The translations under genes and the position numbers were made by a program. Source: a virus. Taken from it: a DNA stretch of 64,000 nucleotides. The stretch is from positions 21,866-85,865 of the IMG/VR virus record IMGVR_UViG_3300031730_000002. One strand, written 5' to 3'. Each line of letters begins with the position of its first letter. Position 1 is the first letter of the stretch. Below are positions 28,402 through 57,604 of the stretch, piece by piece. The notes below the pieces were generated by a model. It did no database searches, was not told the origin of the DNA, and saw only the letters and a list, made by a program, of their open reading frames with translations.

Positions 28402-29247
28402 TCAACCCTCAGCGAACTCGGCCGGGCCGACCTGCAGCAAGGTCCAGTTGTTCGTGCCGGTCTTCTTGGGCACCGCCTTGATGCTCAGGATGTTCGAGCC
28501 TTCGGCCGGCTGCTTGCCTGCAGCCACGTCGAACGTGCGGTCGAAGTTGAAGCGGTCGAACGTCTTGCGGGCCTGCGACGACAGGCTGACCTGCACCGTG
28601 CGATCGAGCAGGTTGGTGGGGTTCTCGGAGGCCAGCAGCACACCGACAAGCACCATCTTCTGTGCGACCTTGGCATTCGGAAATAGTGGGCGAACTTCTT
28701 CGAGGTAGTCGGCGATGGTCTGGCCTGAATCGCTGAGCGTCACGCCGTCGTTCGAGTAGCGCACGTACTCCTTGGCCTTGGCCGAGTCGTCACCCATGCC
28801 GATGTCCCAGGCGTGTTGCCACGAGCGCAGCTCGATCGCGATCTCGCGCCCGAGGCTGTTGCCGCTGTTGTCCTGGATGTCACCAGCGCCAGCCTTCAGT
28901 CGCTCGAAGGTGTCGTACTCGACGGTGAAAGCGTCCTTGAAGGCGTTCAAGATCGGCTCGGGCATCGCCTTCACGGCGGCGGTCAGGGCGCCCGGAGGAC
29001 GCACCAGCACGGCGCGTTGGGTGCTGGCAGGCTGCTGCTGCACGGCGGGCTTGACGGGGATCTGCACGGCGGCCGGCGCTGTGGTTGACGCAGGCGTCTG
29101 CGCTGCCCCGAGCTGTGCGGTCTGCGGCGTGGTGCCGGCTGCGGGGTTGTCGGCGGGAGCCACGGTCTGCTGCACGGGGGTCTGTGCGGCGGTCTCCACT
29201 GCGGGAGCAGCTTCGGCGGTGGCGTTGGGATTGCGGCGAATCAGCAT
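28402..29247 (-). CDS. Candidate single-stranded-DNA-binding or OB-fold protein
   Basis: This 281-residue protein has a disordered Ala/Pro/Gln/Thr linker at residues 1-75, followed by a ~200-residue domain. That domain contains L-G-R-E-I-A-I-E-L, E-Y-V-R-Y-S-N-D-G-V and L-L-D-R-T-V-Q-V-S-L-S. The domain recurs in phage genomes near replication genes. It follows the promoter at 29307 and sits next to the primase-helicase, where an SSB would be expected. The SSB assignment is inference. Confidence 0.45.
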   Translation of the reverse strand: MLIRRNPNATAEAAPAVETAAQTPVQQTVAPADNPAAGTTPQTAQLGAAQTPASTTAPAAVQIPVKPAVQQQPASTQRAVLVRPPGALTAAVKAMPEPILNAFKDAFTVEYDTFERLKAGAGDIQDNSGNSLGREIAIELRSWQHAWDIGMGDDSAKAKEYVRYSNDGVTLSDSGQTIADYLEEVRPLFPNAKVAQKMVLVGVLLASENPTNLLDRTVQVSLSSQARKTFDRFNFDRTFDVAAGKQPAEGSNILSIKAVPKKTGTNNWTLLQVGPAEFAEG

Positions 29248-29306
29248 GGTGTCATTTCCTATTCAGGTTGGTAGTCACATAGTGGTCAAGAGAAGACCAC
29301 GAGAGA

Positions 29307-29334
29307 AGTCTAGCGAGTTCAGTAGAAGTGTCAA
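29307..29334 (-). promoter_or_regulatory. Sigma70-type promoter
   Basis: On the minus strand, TTGACA (29334-29329) and TAGACT (29312-29307) are 16 bases apart. The -35 box overlaps the stop codon of the primase-helicase gene. It would drive the SSB candidate and Ig-like genes up to the terminator at 27881. A GAGAAGAC box lies at 29290-29297 (plus orientation) and a related GAGAAGTC at 29303-29310. Confidence 0.75.
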
Positions 29335-32279
29335 GTGCCTTTGAAGTTATCCACCCCCAGTTTGCGAAGTTCATTCATGTCGAAGACGAACGTGCCGCCC
29401 GGCGCCACCAGCTTGTGCGATGCGCCTTGCTCCAGCAGAGCAGTCGAGTCACGCATGGCGTGCAGGAAAGCAGGGTCGCCGGAGAAGAGCGGCTTGTAGC
29501 TGATGTTCTTGCAGTGCACGCGGTACTTGTGATAGCAGCGACGCATCGAGAACTCGATCGCTTCCTTGCCGCCGAAGTCGAAGACTGCGAAGTCCTGGCC
29601 TTTGACCAACTTCGATGGCGAGTCCTCTTCCTCGTAGCTCATCGAGGCAAAGGTGTTGAGCACCTTCAGGTACTCGGCTTGCGTGGCCGGCAACAGATCC
29701 TGCATGCGGGAGTAGATCGCATCGTCGAGCACTGCGAACTGCTCGGCAAACTCTGCCTCACCGTACACCAGATCGATGATCCGCTTGAACTGCCGCAAGC
29801 CGAACTTGCTGACGGTGAAGTTGTAGACCGAGCGCTGCTTCGCGCCCTGCTTGCGCCGCATCTCTTCGTCGGTGATGCCATCGGTCAAGTCCTGCGCGGT
29901 CAGCATGTAGTGCGCCTGCGCCGCGTTGTACATCACATCGAACTCGGTCTTCAACTGCTCCAGGCTGTAGTTGTGGACGATGTCGGCCGCAAGGTGGCGA
30001 CCGATCACCGCCATGCTCTGCTTCTCGGCCACGAAGTGCATGAAGCGTGCGTACCAGGTCAAAGCCACCGACGACGGCGGTCGCACCACCGTGACCAGGA
30101 CAACACGCTCCATCGTCGCCGGCTCTTCTTCCATCACCTCACCGACAAAGCAGACCGGCGCCGAGATCTGCGTCTGGTTCAGAGAGCGGAAATCCTCGCT
30201 GTCCCGGTTGCCGCCACCCTTCGTGATCTCGCGGTTGTTGTAGGCATCGCGCCAGAGCAGCTTGAGTTTGCTGTGCAGATCCGGCGGCATCTCGTGCGGC
30301 TTGTACTCGTCGATCAGCAGCGGGATGCTTGCCGATGCGGCCATGTGCTGCTGCAGAGCGAACAGGCTGGACTGCGGTGTCAGCTCTTTCGGCTCCTGGT
30401 TGAAGTAGAAGAGCGACAACATCGCCCGGTTCTGCTCGGTCTTGCCTGCACCAGCTGACCCATTCACATGCAGCAACGGGAACTTCTGGTAGACCTTGTT
30501 GAACATCATCCGGTAGAAGCATGACGTGTACCAGCCCAAATAATTCCCGATCACGTCGGGCTTCTGGCAGCCGATGAACGAGTGCAAGGCCTTGCGGAAA
30601 GACTCTTTACTTTCCGTGGCTGCCCAGTCCGCAAGCTCGGGCGCGTCGCTGAGATCCGTGCGGTAGATGCCGCGTGTGTCGGGGTAGCCTTGGAAGGACA
30701 TCGTGATGCCGGTGGCTGCAGCACGCGGCTCCATCATCACGCCGCGGTTGTCTGCCCACACCATGAAAGGTTTGTGCAGCTCGGTCTGCTCGTGGCCGGG
30801 GATGTTGAGTACGTCGAGGCCTTCGCGCTTGGCGACGTAACGGACCTTGTCGTTGCTCATAGCTTTCTGCGCTACTCGCATGTGAAGTGATCGAACATGA
30901 GCATCGCTCCCTTGCATGATGTGGGCGTAGCGCCCGGCGAATTTGTTGAAGGCCTGCAGACCAGAGAAGGTGTCCAGCTCAAGGGTCTGCGTGCCGACGC
31001 TCTTGCCGTTGACGAAGACCGTGGCTTGGTAGCATGACACCGCACTCTTCTCGGTGTCACGCAGGATCACCACGTCATCGAATGACAGAGCGCAGATGCG
31101 CTTCTTTCCGTCCTCGGTGTTGATGTAGACCCCGTACTTGGTCATGTCGAGACCAGCGGCGATGTCGTTGTACGCATCGCTGACCGGCACCTCGGTGCTG
31201 GCTTCAGCCGGTGCATTCGCAGCCGCTTCGATGTTCGCCGCGACTTCAGCCTCGGTGACTGGGATGCCGTCAAGGTCTGGTGCATCGTGGCTGAGCAAGG
31301 TCTTGATCGCACCGATCGAGAACTCGTAGCACGGGTTGTCGTGCGTGTAGCGGTGCATGCGCACCAGCTCGGTCGCACGCTTGTCCGGCGTGTTGTAACG
31401 GTTGCCGTCGCCACCATGAGTCTCGATCAAGCCAGCGGCCTTGGCCACCAACGTCTCTTCATTCCAGCCCATCGCATCGGCCACGATGCCGAGCTGCAGT
31501 GACAGCTGATGGAAGCCGACATCGGCCTTGATGCCTTGGCCAGCCAGCATGTAATCGAGCGAGGGCAGCTTGGTCTGGCGCAGCTTGCTGTTGTCGGTCA
31601 TCGCCTTCTTGCGACGCTTGGCCAGCTTGGCGTCAACCGCCTGCACGGCCTTGTCGTAGAGCAAGGTCAAGTCGATCGACTGTGCGGCCGGCTCGGGCTG
31701 GATCAGCGGGCGCGGCGCCGAGGTCAGCTCGGTGTACTGCTCGGTGGTCATGGCCTTCAGCTCGGACCAGGTGATCGCCACCTTGTAGCGCCCGTTCTCG
31801 CGCTGCACGTTCGTCGAGCGCCACATGCGCCCCTTGCGCGCCGAGTAGACCCGAAGGTCAAGGTGGTCGACTGCAACAGCCAGCGCCATCTCACGGTAGA
31901 AGAGCGGCAGGTTGACGACGCCGAGCTTCGGTGCCTTGGGCATGAAGACTTCCATCGGGATCTCGCAGTGGTAGCCGCGCCCGCCGGTAGCGAAGAGCTT
32001 CACCGTGCTCATCTTCAGGCCGCGCTCCTCCATGCCCGACAGCAGCTTGACGGCTTGCGTGGTCGCCGTGTCGATGTCGTTGCAGTCCCAGTCGAGGTAC
32101 ATCGGACCCTCGTACTTGAGCTTGTCGATCTCTTCGCGCGATAGGTCGTCGACCATCTGCGACACAGCGAGCACGGTCGAATAGCGTGGTCGTTTCTCGG
32201 CGCAGAAGGCAGGCCACATCGGCAGCGGAATGGGCTGCCATGTTTCTTCGCCCCCAACGATTTGCACGTACTTGTACAT
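29331..32279 (-). CDS. Prim-pol (AEP-type primase) / helicase fusion
   Basis: This 982-residue protein has Y-L-D-W-D-C (D63, D65) and G-G-R-G-Y-H-C-E-I-P in the first 130 residues, which fit an archaeo-eukaryotic type primase-polymerase. A central P-loop N-G-S-A-G-A-G-K-T at about residue 608 with P-L-L-I-D-E-Y gives an ATPase or helicase domain. I chose the ATG at 32279 because it forms a TGATG overlap and longer versions run into the next gene. It probably primes and unwinds DNA for the phage polymerase. Confidence 0.82.
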   Translation of the reverse strand: MYKYVQIVGGEETWQPIPLPMWPAFCAEKRPRYSTVLAVSQMVDDLSREEIDKLKYEGPMYLDWDCNDIDTATTQAVKLLSGMEERGLKMSTVKLFATGGRGYHCEIPMEVFMPKAPKLGVVNLPLFYREMALAVAVDHLDLRVYSARKGRMWRSTNVQRENGRYKVAITWSELKAMTTEQYTELTSAPRPLIQPEPAAQSIDLTLLYDKAVQAVDAKLAKRRKKAMTDNSKLRQTKLPSLDYMLAGQGIKADVGFHQLSLQLGIVADAMGWNEETLVAKAAGLIETHGGDGNRYNTPDKRATELVRMHRYTHDNPCYEFSIGAIKTLLSHDAPDLDGIPVTEAEVAANIEAAANAPAEASTEVPVSDAYNDIAAGLDMTKYGVYINTEDGKKRICALSFDDVVILRDTEKSAVSCYQATVFVNGKSVGTQTLELDTFSGLQAFNKFAGRYAHIMQGSDAHVRSLHMRVAQKAMSNDKVRYVAKREGLDVLNIPGHEQTELHKPFMVWADNRGVMMEPRAAATGITMSFQGYPDTRGIYRTDLSDAPELADWAATESKESFRKALHSFIGCQKPDVIGNYLGWYTSCFYRMMFNKVYQKFPLLHVNGSAGAGKTEQNRAMLSLFYFNQEPKELTPQSSLFALQQHMAASASIPLLIDEYKPHEMPPDLHSKLKLLWRDAYNNREITKGGGNRDSEDFRSLNQTQISAPVCFVGEVMEEEPATMERVVLVTVVRPPSSVALTWYARFMHFVAEKQSMAVIGRHLAADIVHNYSLEQLKTEFDVMYNAAQAHYMLTAQDLTDGITDEEMRRKQGAKQRSVYNFTVSKFGLRQFKRIIDLVYGEAEFAEQFAVLDDAIYSRMQDLLPATQAEYLKVLNTFASMSYEEEDSPSKLVKGQDFAVFDFGGKEAIEFSMRRCYHKYRVHCKNISYKPLFSGDPAFLHAMRDSTALLEQGASHKLVAPGGTFVFDMNELRKLGVDNFKGT

Positions 32280-34636: not shown

Positions 34637-34861
34637 TTAGCGGAAGCGTGGGTAGTCTTCGTTGTGGGTTGGGTCGTCTTCCTCAGCCTCGACGCAGGCG
34701 TTGTACAGCACCTTGCTGCACGGCTGGTTGTCGAACTCGTGGTACATCCAGATCACGTACTTCGGATCGATCTCGGCGATCTCACTCGGCGTCTTGCCGT
34801 TGTGCTTGCCGAAGTCGAGTGGTGTATGGTCAAGCTCTTCATCGCGTGTCTTGAACTTCAC
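34637..34861 (-). CDS. Stand-alone DUF3820-like protein
   Basis: This 74-residue protein starts at a GTG with AGGAG close upstream. Its core L-D-F-G-K-H-N-G-K-T-P-S-E-I with a later Y-V-I-W-M-Y matches the C-terminal module of the exonuclease at 27177. The tail is acidic. It is divergent from the H-NS-like gene. The next bases (34561-34636) hold only a 6-bp hairpin and no gene. Confidence 0.65.
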   Translation of the reverse strand: MKFKTRDEELDHTPLDFGKHNGKTPSEIAEIDPKYVIWMYHEFDNQPCSKVLYNACVEAEEDDPTHNEDYPRFR

Positions 34862-34873
34862 TGTCTTCTCCTG

Positions 34874-34902
34874 TTGACAAACTTACTAACTCTGTCTACT
34901 AT
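34874..34902 (+). promoter_or_regulatory. Sigma70-type promoter for the H-NS-like gene
   Basis: TTGACA (34874-34879) and TACTAT (34897-34902) are separated by 17 bases. It is the only good plus-strand promoter found right of 14.6 kb. A GTCTTCTC octamer (34863-34870) lies just upstream of the -35 box. Confidence 0.87.
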
Positions 34903-34914
34903 TCGCATGCGCTG

Positions 34915-34930
34915 TGAGTAGCGCTACTCA
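34915..34930 (+). promoter_or_regulatory. 16-bp perfect palindrome, operator candidate
   Basis: TGAGTAGCGCTACTCA is a perfect palindrome. It lies 12 bases after the -10 box, so it overlaps or just follows the expected transcription start of the H-NS-like gene. This is a typical position for a repressor site. Which protein binds it cannot be told; the H-NS-like protein, the LuxR-type protein or a host repressor are possible. Confidence 0.65.
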
Positions 34931-34958
34931 ACCCACTTACTGAACAAGGAACAATGTC

Positions 34959-35282
34959 ATGTCCATTCTCGACGAAATCGCAACCCTGAAGAAGCAGCTC
35001 GATGAAAAGATGGCTGCGGCCGAAGTCGAACTCCGTGCGCAGAAGTCCGGCGTCATCGCCGAGATCCTGGCGCACATGAAAGAGAACGGCGTCTCGCTCA
35101 AGGATCTGAACGCTGCGGCTCTCGTCGCCGCCAGCAAGTACAGCTCGGGCACGAAGACCTGGTCGGGCAAAGGCAAGCAGCCGGCTTGGCTGGTCGCGGG
35201 CATCGCTGCCGGCGCCACGCTCGACTCGTTCCTGACGCACAAGGTGGCCAACGCCGCCGCTGCCGAACCGGCCTCAGCGTAA
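34959..35282 (+). CDS. H-NS-like nucleoid protein
   Basis: This 107-residue protein has an N-terminal coiled coil (residues 1-45) for oligomerisation, then T-W-S-G-K-G-K-Q-P-A-W-L (67-78), the AT-hook-like DNA-binding loop of H-NS proteins. A hydrophobic extension of about 29 residues follows the motif. It is the only plus-strand gene in the right 49 kb and has its own promoter, palindrome and terminator. Phage H-NS homologues can silence genes or counter host H-NS. It could act early or in lysogeny. Confidence 0.88.
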   Translation: MSILDEIATLKKQLDEKMAAAEVELRAQKSGVIAEILAHMKENGVSLKDLNAAALVAASKYSSGTKTWSGKGKQPAWLVAGIAAGATLDSFLTHKVANAAAAEPASA

Positions 35283-35283
35283 G

Positions 35284-35541
35284 CTACGCCGCTCGCTGCA
35301 AGGCCGCCTCCGGGCGGCCTTTTTCGTGTCTGAAACGATCCCACATCAGCAGGTGCCGGAACTGGCTGCGGTCGTTGATGCCCATGCGCTTGCGAATCCG
35401 CAGCATGTGGGCCTCCGCAGTCTTCACTGCCATGCCCAGCTCTCGGGCCGCGGCCTTGCTGCCGCCCCACAGGATCACCGTGTCCATCAGCTGCTCTTCG
35501 CGTGGGGTCAAGCCCCAAGGGTTACTCTTCTTCTTGGTCAT
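35284..35541 (-). CDS. LuxR/GerE-type HTH regulator
   Basis: This 85-residue protein is almost entirely one GerE-type HTH: L-T-P-R-E-E-Q-L, then A-A-R-E-L-G-M-A-V-K-T-A-E-A-H and R-K-R-M-G-I-N-D-R. It has no receiver or ligand domain. It overlaps the Topo VI-like stop by 20 bases and ends two bases from the convergent H-NS-like gene. It may be a transcription regulator of the phage; a sigma region 4-like role is an alternative. Confidence 0.8.
   Translation of the reverse strand: MTKKKSNPWGLTPREEQLMDTVILWGGSKAAARELGMAVKTAEAHMLRIRKRMGINDRSQFRHLLMWDRFRHEKGRPEAALQRAA
35301..35324 (+). terminator. Intrinsic terminator of the H-NS-like gene
   Basis: AGGCCGCC and GGCGGCCT pair around a TCCG loop and are followed by four more T residues. 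It lies 18 bases after the H-NS-like stop and inside the 3' end of the opposing LuxR-type gene. Confidence 0.9.
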
Positions 35542-52869: not shown

Positions 52870-53171
52870 AGCGTCGGCTCCTTCGGTGCTTGCACGCGAG
52901 CGCCGGCCGTCAGGCGCAACACTGCGTTGATGAAGTCGGGGCGCAGGCCTTGCTTGCGCATCTGCTGCACCGTGGCCACGGTGCCCTTCTGCGCCTCGCG
53001 GGTCTGCCAGTGCCGCGCCGTCACGGCGCCGATCAGCGCAAGGCTGCGCACCTCGTCGAGCGTCAGGGTGGTGGGGATGCCGTTGTCGCGGCGGGTGAAG
53101 GTGATCTGCGGTTTGGGCGTGCTGAAGTCGCGCGGCGTCTTCAGCAGGGTCACGAATGCTTGCGGGGTCAT
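52866..53171 (-). CDS. Unknown accessory protein
   Basis: This 101-residue protein is mixed strand and helix, with I-T-F-T-R-R-D-N-G-I. It has the leader ACTTTAAAGGA and lies just after the promoter at 53201. It heads this transcript. Confidence 0.58.
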   Translation of the reverse strand: MTPQAFVTLLKTPRDFSTPKPQITFTRRDNGIPTTLTLDEVRSLALIGAVTARHWQTREAQKGTVATVQQMRKQGLRPDFINAVLRLTAGARVQAPKEPTL

Positions 53172-56249: not shown

Positions 56250-56447
56250 TCAGTTAAGCCACTTCAATGCCCACCGGGCCGAAGATGGCAGCTTCACGAA
56301 CAGCGTGTATTTCCGTGTCGGTTTCTCGGCGCAGTCGGCTGGGTAGAAGACCAGCTTGGTCTGACACTCGGCGTCACGGAAGATGGTCACCGACTTATCG
56401 CCGTTCTCGACGGCGTAAACGGTGACGACTTCAGGTGGCTTTGGCAT
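56250..56447 (-). CDS. Unknown small protein
   Basis: This 65-residue strand-rich protein (V-V-T-V-Y-A-V-E-N-G and K-Y-T-L-F-V-K-L) starts at the ATG at 56447, overlapping the upstream gene by 17 bases. Confidence 0.55.
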   Translation of the reverse strand: MPKPPEVVTVYAVENGDKSVTIFRDAECQTKLVFYPADCAEKPTRKYTLFVKLPSSARWALKWLN

Positions 56448-56613
56448 CTTGGTCCAGTGCCAGCTTCGCAAGTCGGCGCAGGGTGGTGGCGTCGCCGGGC
56501 GTGTAGGTGCTGATGTCGAGCAAGGCGTGCTGCAGGGCTTCGAGCCGCTTGTGCAGCGACTCGAACGTTCCGCACATGTCGCGCAGGGTCTTGATGTCGG
56601 GGTCTTCGTTCAC
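56431..56613 (-). CDS. Small helical protein
   Basis: This 60-residue protein starts at the GTG of a GTGA overlap. It is helical, with F-E-S-L-H-K-R-L-E-A-L-Q-H-A-L. Confidence 0.55.
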   Translation of the reverse strand: MNEDPDIKTLRDMCGTFESLHKRLEALQHALLDISTYTPGDATTLRRLAKLALDQDAKAT

Positions 56614-56825
56614 AGGATCACGCTCACTTTCTTCTTGATGATGAGGGGCACGACGCAGTGCTCGTTGCCGTACTTGCCCACGATGAACTCGCCGCCTTGC
56701 TCGTTGCAAGCCTCGGCGCTGGTCTTCAGGTCGTCGATGATCGCGCAGCCTTTGGCCACGAGACCGCCAGCACCGACTACGATCATCACCGCTGCGGTGA
56801 TCAGCACCTTGGTCTCAACACGCAC
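56610..56825 (-). CDS. Small membrane or secreted protein
   Basis: This 71-residue protein has an N-terminal hydrophobic helix (V-L-I-T-A-A-V-M-I-V-V-G-A-G) and two Cys in the outer part. The GTG start has AAAGGA upstream. Confidence 0.6.
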   Translation of the reverse strand: MRVETKVLITAAVMIVVGAGGLVAKGCAIIDDLKTSAEACNEQGGEFIVGKYGNEHCVVPLIIKKKVSVIL

Positions 56826-57084
56826 GGTTCTTGTTCCTTTCGTCGCTGGCGTACTGCAGCAGGTCTTCCTGCAAGTTCAGGCTCTGCTCGGGCAGGCTGT
56901 AGTCGATCTCGCAAGTGTGGATGTGCATGTTGTCCGGCAGCTTGCAGCGGAAGACCGCGCCGGTATTGGCGATTGCAAACAGCACGTCGTGTTCATTCCT
57001 CGCTGCGATCCACAGCACGCGGTCGTCTGTCTCGTCGGTGCTGCCGTCGAAGCCGGCGGCAGTGATCTCGTAGATGTGCTTCAC
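56815..57084 (-). CDS. Unknown small protein
   Basis: This 89-residue protein starts at the GTG of a GTGA overlap: K-H-I-Y-E-I-T-A-A-G-F-D, then V-L-W-I-A-A and D-V-L-F-A-I-A. No family was recognised. Confidence 0.57.
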   Translation of the reverse strand: MKHIYEITAAGFDGSTDETDDRVLWIAARNEHDVLFAIANTGAVFRCKLPDNMHIHTCEIDYSLPEQSLNLQEDLLQYASDERNKNRAC

Positions 57085-57308
57085 AGGTTCCTCACGATGC
57101 AATCGTTCCGATACTCTTTCATGCGCTTGCGCCCCATGATGTCGGCACAGCGCTGCGCCTCAGCGCCGAACTTCTCGGCGAGCAGCATGCGCAGCTCGAT
57201 GCCGTCCCATGAGGCGGGCACGGTGTTGTTGCGGATCTTCTCGGCGATGTCGCCTGCGATGGCTTGCGTGAGATCACGCAGGAATTGGGTCTGTTCGGTG
57301 CGGGTCAT
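57081..57308 (-). CDS. Unknown small protein
   Basis: This 75-residue helical protein (F-L-R-D-L-T-Q-A-I-A-G-D-I) is common in outline among short phage proteins of this kind. It overlaps both neighbours. Confidence 0.57.
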   Translation of the reverse strand: MTRTEQTQFLRDLTQAIAGDIAEKIRNNTVPASWDGIELRMLLAEKFGAEAQRCADIMGRKRMKEYRNDCIVRNL

Positions 57309-57604
57309 CCTCGCTCTCCCATGATCTTGCCGCCTTCAATCCAGGCGTCGTTGACAACGCCGGCCATGTAGTCGCCGGGCTTGTAGAAGTCGTCGGCCGG
57401 CGTGAGAGCAAGTCGCTTGATGATTGCCCACAAGGCGTCGCGCTGGACCCTCAGCGCCTCGTCGGCGAGCACTTCGCTCACCACTTGCGCCGAGACCAGC
57501 TCGCGCTCATACTCGTTCACGTAGTCACGAACGACGGCCAGAATCTTCTCGCCGTCTGTACCGCGGGGCAGCACATCGTGCAGGTTGTGCCAGTTGATTT
57601 TCAT
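57305..57604 (-). CDS. Unknown small protein
   Basis: This 99-residue protein starts at the ATG at 57604, two bases after the upstream stop. It is helical, with E-K-I-L-A-V-V-R-D-Y-V and L-W-A-I-I-K-R-L. No family was recognised. Confidence 0.55.
   Translation of the reverse strand: MKINWHNLHDVLPRGTDGEKILAVVRDYVNEYERELVSAQVVSEVLADEALRVQRDALWAIIKRLALTPADDFYKPGDYMAGVVNDAWIEGGKIMGERG

Follow-up and report, generated by a model that had tools for sequence, protein, structure and literature searches.

Phage-encoded H-NS has been known since 2011 from gp43 of EBPR podovirus 1 (EPV1) (Skennerton et al. 2011, PMC3097231), for which silencing of host defence was proposed (PMC3097231). The plasmid- and island-borne homologues Sfh, Acr2 and Pmr (PMC7074111) are likewise silencer copies on mobile elements and contain both domains. 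T7 gp5.5, T4 Arn and LUZ24 gp4/Mip are also phage genes acting on host xenogeneic silencing, and T7 gp5.5 reduces H-NS silencing (PMC8501957). No functional test of a phage-encoded H-NS was found in the literature searched.

Here we analysed a stretch of 64,000 nucleotides, referred to as the window, which comprises bases 21866-85865 of an 85,865-base IMG/VR virus record and carries an hns gene. Like EPV1 gp43, its product is a full-length phage H-NS, and the two are 31% identical over most of the protein. However, the EPV1 gene lies among same-strand genes near the terminase, whereas the window gene forms a reversed single-gene unit; the motif is RGK in EPV1 and KGK here; and EPV1 was inferred to be lysogenic (PMC3097231), whereas integration genes were not detected in the window phage. 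Compared with Sfh, Acr2 and Pmr, the window gene differs in its phage context, its counter-oriented unit and in having KGK for Q/RGR. T7 gp5.5, T4 Arn and LUZ24 gp4/Mip, unlike the window protein, are not H-NS homologues with a DNA-binding domain. Both this protein and the H-NS of a related phage match PHROG 10171 (2.5e-8 and 3.5e-12, respectively), an unannotated phage family that comes without function or context. Phage H-NS as such is already known; what we did not find described in the literature searched is that its reversed orientation is conserved and that KGK occurs as a variant, and papers beyond it are possible.

A profile scan of IMG/VR gave 117 candidate H-NS homologues, and the question of what phage H-NS does is therefore a general one. 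Stand-alone genes number at most 117, because ParB fusions are among the candidates. These fusions are large phage or provirus proteins, such as L133:3321-5183, L141:3276-5243 and similar ORFs of 588-874 aa in L106, L115, L116, L118, L122, L132, L134, L160 and others. Two of the proteins were tested against Pfam, and both contain ParB_N, HTH_ParB and a C-terminal H-NS DNA-binding domain; nothing relevant on ParB combined with an H-NS domain was found in the literature. An hns match in 'Acinetobacter phage MD-2021a' (INPHARED CAKLQH020000023.1 and CAKLQF020000026.1) was set aside: with hemC, hemD and type II secretion genes beside hns (region viewed in the first record), it looks like a bacterial chromosome contig.

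The hns gene and its product

The window belongs to a tailed phage whose terminase, portal, major head protein, tape measure and tail genes all lie on the plus strand. Codon-usage gene calling showed a block of minus-strand genes from about 14.7 kb to the window end, about 49 kb long, which encodes DNA polymerase, primase, an SNF2-type helicase, a topoisomerase homologue and SbcCD, together with thymidylate synthase, MazG, a DNA methyltransferase and nucleotide-metabolism genes. The initial annotation had described a lone plus-strand gene embedded in this block, and the gene calling agreed, with hns as the sole well-supported one. Another plus-strand ORF, at 56422-57324, is weak, overlaps better-coupled minus-strand ORFs and has zero family matches. 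Rfam gave zero matches in the window. A lone reversed position could not be established as a rule for phage hns genes (5/37 vs 10/195 other small genes, p=0.07), and these counts rest on a crude gene caller. The features of the locus are:

34637-34861, minus strand, gene for an ExoX-C-like protein of 74 aa, divergent flank of hns (family match; orthologue on the same side in the relative)
34873-34899, weak imperfect 27-bp dyad spanning the promoter, 10/13 pairs, GTTGACAAACTTACTAACTCTGTCTAC
34874-34902, plus strand, sigma-70-type promoter TTGACA-17-TACTAT, 10/12 consensus matches (site scan)
34915-34930, perfect 16-bp palindrome TGAGTAGCGCTACTCA, about +6 to +22, candidate operator (sequence search)
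34946-34950, plus strand, Shine-Dalgarno-like AAGGA, 8 nt before the hns ATG (sequence reading)
34959-35282, plus strand, hns, H-NS family protein of 107 aa (ORF, Pfam, AlphaFold, Foldseek)
35284-35541, minus strand, gene for a GerE/LuxR-type HTH protein of 85 aa, convergent with hns (PF00196, E=6e-6)
35300-35326, plus strand, intrinsic terminator of hns, stem 35300-35321 of 9 bp followed by TTTTT (scan, folding)

The window protein matched the H-NS C-terminal domain PF00816 with E=2e-9 and 37.4 bits (curated cut-off 25.6), and the relative's H-NS scored 41.6. For the N-terminal oligomerisation domain PF22470 the window protein reached 19.5 bits, below the cut-off of 24.5. Its architecture comprises an N-terminal coiled helix, a short linker and a C-terminal DNA-binding domain with TWSGKGKQPAWL. 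In the AlphaFold model (pLDDT 85), a long N-terminal helix and a second helix are followed by a C-terminal domain of two strands and helices. The top Foldseek matches in the PDB were the C-terminal domain of Salmonella H-NS, superposed at an rmsd of 1.2 A across 40 columns, and then Ler; their E-values were above 0.1, weak as expected for 40 residues, and serve as support only.

The AT-hook-like motif of H-NS is Q/RGR (PMC4466236). In both phage proteins the DNA-contact motif is instead KGK, which, judged by sequence, is a variant inside the Pfam H-NS family; we do not claim membership of the strict Q/RGR subgroup. The motif differs across phage homologues (RGR, RGK, RGL, KGR and others). AT selectivity may be lowered by KGK, and with this motif in place of Q/RGR in each of the two phages, together with a short linker, classical AT-rich silencing is perhaps weak. 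It is possible, if rather unlikely, that the protein is an anti-silencer: by forming hetero-oligomers with the H-NS-like proteins of the host, it would make them less effective in silencing phage DNA, in the manner of truncated H-NS forms and T7 gp5.5. The N-terminal helix of the model, the very short linker and the replacement of the AT-hook-like arginines in both phages would fit such a function, and inhibition of H-NS or MvaT is known from several phages (PMC8501957). However, the DNA-binding domain has been kept, with its key W, G, P and W residues invariant, unlike in truncated antagonists, and KGK also occurs in homologues from bacterial assemblies (Chlorobiaceae and Rhodocyclaceae).

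The orthologous locus in a related phage

Most searches for related phages gave distant kin only. The nearest relative found is the IMG/VR contig IMGVR_UViG_3300049012_000046 of 62,450 bases (L164 or G047 in the coordinates below). Its helicase is 67% identical to that of the window phage, its primase 58% and the neighbours 49-51%. Its hns gene (L164 2615-2938) encodes 107 aa with 43% identity to the window H-NS and is located between homologues of EndoVII and ExoX-C, on the strand opposite to the homologues of EndoVII, ExoX-C, g34195, helicase and primase. These strands were taken from homology anchors only, because the codon-model gene map of the whole contig was noisy. On the 3' side of the gene a hairpin of great strength (fold -37.6 kcal/mol, z -4.9) is followed by a T-rich tail. 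In a tree of 51 phage and bacterial homologues the two proteins formed a clade with support of 100/98, and in BLAST the window H-NS matched the L164 protein with 75 bits, the next best match having 59.

Since the relative has an orthologous hns at the same locus, reversed and with its own terminator, the islet appears ancestral; most simply, the gene, its place, its orientation and its terminator would have been inherited from a common ancestor. This conservation is read from two genomes, the window phage and one relative. The autonomous islet proposed at the outset is thus supported by its anatomy (own promoter, own terminator, opposing strand) and by the same orientation and a terminator in the relative.

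Searches of IMG/VR or GTDB with the DNA polymerase and with the single hns protein gave no relatives, and the hns locus was not common to the contigs found via the topoisomerase and a 667-aa protein. One IMG/VR contig (L032; G018:C1:27148-27261, L082) has both a homologue of this 667-aa PHROG 1735 protein and an hns gene, which the tree places in another H-NS lineage.

Transcription signals and flanking genes

The near-consensus promoter reported upstream of hns was recovered by the site scan. Promoter-like sites with 10/12 matches are enriched, with 5 in the window vs 0.95 in Markov sequences, and three of the others sit directly upstream of minus-strand genes; a sigma-70-type promoter of its own is therefore not peculiar to hns. 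The 29-base hns promoter is identical at 23/29 positions to a stretch at G047:31995 in the relative, while shuffles of G047 reached a maximum of 18. That stretch directly precedes the relative's orthologue of window gene 28402-29247, and it and the hns promoter each resemble their own reverse complement, i.e. both are imperfect dyads. Because of this match to the promoter of another gene in the relative, hns is probably driven by the phage lineage's own promoter class, and the simplest reading of the sequences would be a phage-lineage promoter type and not the promoter of a host-derived cassette. A search before the relative's hns gave no sigma-70 promoter of comparable quality.

The hns terminator was the top-ranked site in an 18-kb scan (z=-2.0), in agreement with the strong terminator originally described, and falls within the 3'-terminal part of the LuxR-type CDS, which converges on hns. 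As read from the sequence, the hns terminators of the window and of the relative have no T-run in the operon direction, and no minus-strand promoter was seen between hns and the ExoX-C-like gene. Operon transcripts should for these two reasons cross hns as antisense.

The locus had been interpreted as a moron, a gene expressed independently of the lytic programme. A classical moron would be a host gene cassette of recent acquisition that brings along its promoter and terminator and is active apart from lytic growth, for instance in a prophage. The promoter and terminator are present at the sequence level, the orientation is reversed, H-NS is a bacterial family, and a terminator inside the 3' end of the LuxR-type gene is what an insertion might leave. 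However, morons are expected to have a composition unlike that of phage core genes (PMC2920897), and both the composition and the codon use of hns are the phage's own: GC is 63% vs 60% locally, and the codon score exceeds that of most phage genes. Morons are also expected to disrupt collinearity and so to be missing from the site in relatives (PMC2920897); in the one relative available the L164 orthologue occupies the corresponding locus, and no empty site was found. The promoter belongs to the phage's own class, and tyrosine integrase, serine recombinase (resolvase) and HTH_3 repressor families had no match in the record, which may be incomplete. Because hns is not foreign in composition, is ancestral at this locus, and neither integrase, resolvase nor HTH_3 repressor was found, the moron interpretation is not supported, and we consider it distinctly unlikely.

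The 16-bp palindrome was indeed found just after the expected transcription start, as had been noted, whereas its length as such is at chance level. Perfect palindromes of at least 16 bp number 2 in the window vs 1.9 expected; the other, and the only longer one, is the 18-bp GCACCGTGGCCACGGTGC at 52967-52984 within a minus-strand gene. With the window-wide number at chance level, only the placement is notable, the number of such palindromes expected in the 97-nt hns leader being about 0.003 (arithmetic from the window expectation). The sequence is single-copy in the 85.9-kb record. A palindrome regulon was rejected, as there were no further copies beyond chance and a control pattern scored higher. 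An RNA leader element was also rejected: the best fold of the leader is a different hairpin from that of the palindrome. The leader RNA is unstructured (z=-0.1), and the palindrome, if it acts, therefore acts as DNA. Most likely it would be an operator of some dimeric repressor, of host or phage. The palindrome was not found in the relative, whose longer hns leader (L164:2939-3117) has three inverted repeats, CGGTAGGACTTACCG, GTTAGGGCTTCCCCTAAC and AGGGGGTCGAACCCCT; these are possibly candidate operators with a specificity unlike that of the window palindrome.

The neighbouring gene is of the LuxR type, as annotated, and a small regulatory switch formed by the pair had been suggested; such a two-gene switch would act on the palindrome. 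The genes are adjacent and convergent, and inverted repeats are the sites at which dimers of LuxR/GerE domains bind DNA. However, the LuxR ORF shows an operon-like overlap with the topoisomerase ORF, and it probably stands outside the hns unit. In the window the topoisomerase and LuxR-type genes stand between EndoVII and hns, whereas the hns neighbours of the relative differ: no match to either gene was found in its 62-kb record, in a search without a positive control there, so that their absence is likely. As hns is kept in the relative while the LuxR-type gene was not found, and the palindrome is not common to the two phages, such a switch is highly improbable.

Both hns leaders are rich in AT. 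The window leader has a GC content of 0.44, the third lowest of the 100-bp intervals in 64 kb, and the relative's leader 0.41, the second lowest in 60 kb. In both phages the lowest spot is the leader of gene 28402-29247 or of its orthologue; the remainder of the window's own record contains one spot that is more AT-rich. The window gene encodes 281 aa without a Pfam or PHROG match and has its leader at 29248-29335; the counterpart leader (L164 9880-9970; G047:31941-32040) carries the hns-like promoter. AT-rich leaders would be obvious candidates for binding by the phage H-NS itself; alternatively, their AT-richness may simply be a promoter trait.

Proposed role

We favour, with reasonable confidence, the view that hns is a xenogeneic-silencer gene of the phage lineage kept as a counter-oriented single-gene transcription unit. 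Its product is most likely a small xenogeneic-silencer homologue that would be expressed independently of the opposing operon. In the proposed mechanism, host sigma-70 polymerase would transcribe hns independently of, and against, the replication-gene operon, and expression would be favoured at times of low operon activity, perhaps directly after entry. The protein would dimerise via its N-terminal helix and bind AT-rich promoters, which may include those of host defence or other host genes, phage promoters and its own leader. Co-assembly with host H-NS-like proteins is possible and would retune silencing during infection; the net effect could be either more silencing (of host defence, EPV1-like) or less (gp5.5-like).

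A more specific version, which we regard as unlikely, is that the arginine-free KGK, short-linker H-NS is kept back-to-front so that operon read-through, by antisense and polymerase collision, would couple its level inversely to operon activity. In this phage, in which lysogeny genes were not detected, the arrangement would time silencing by acting as a brake on it.

That two diverged phages have both kept the counter-oriented unit suggests that its independent expression is of importance to the phage. The locus, at about 460 bp, is a compact one in which the role of phage H-NS may be probed.
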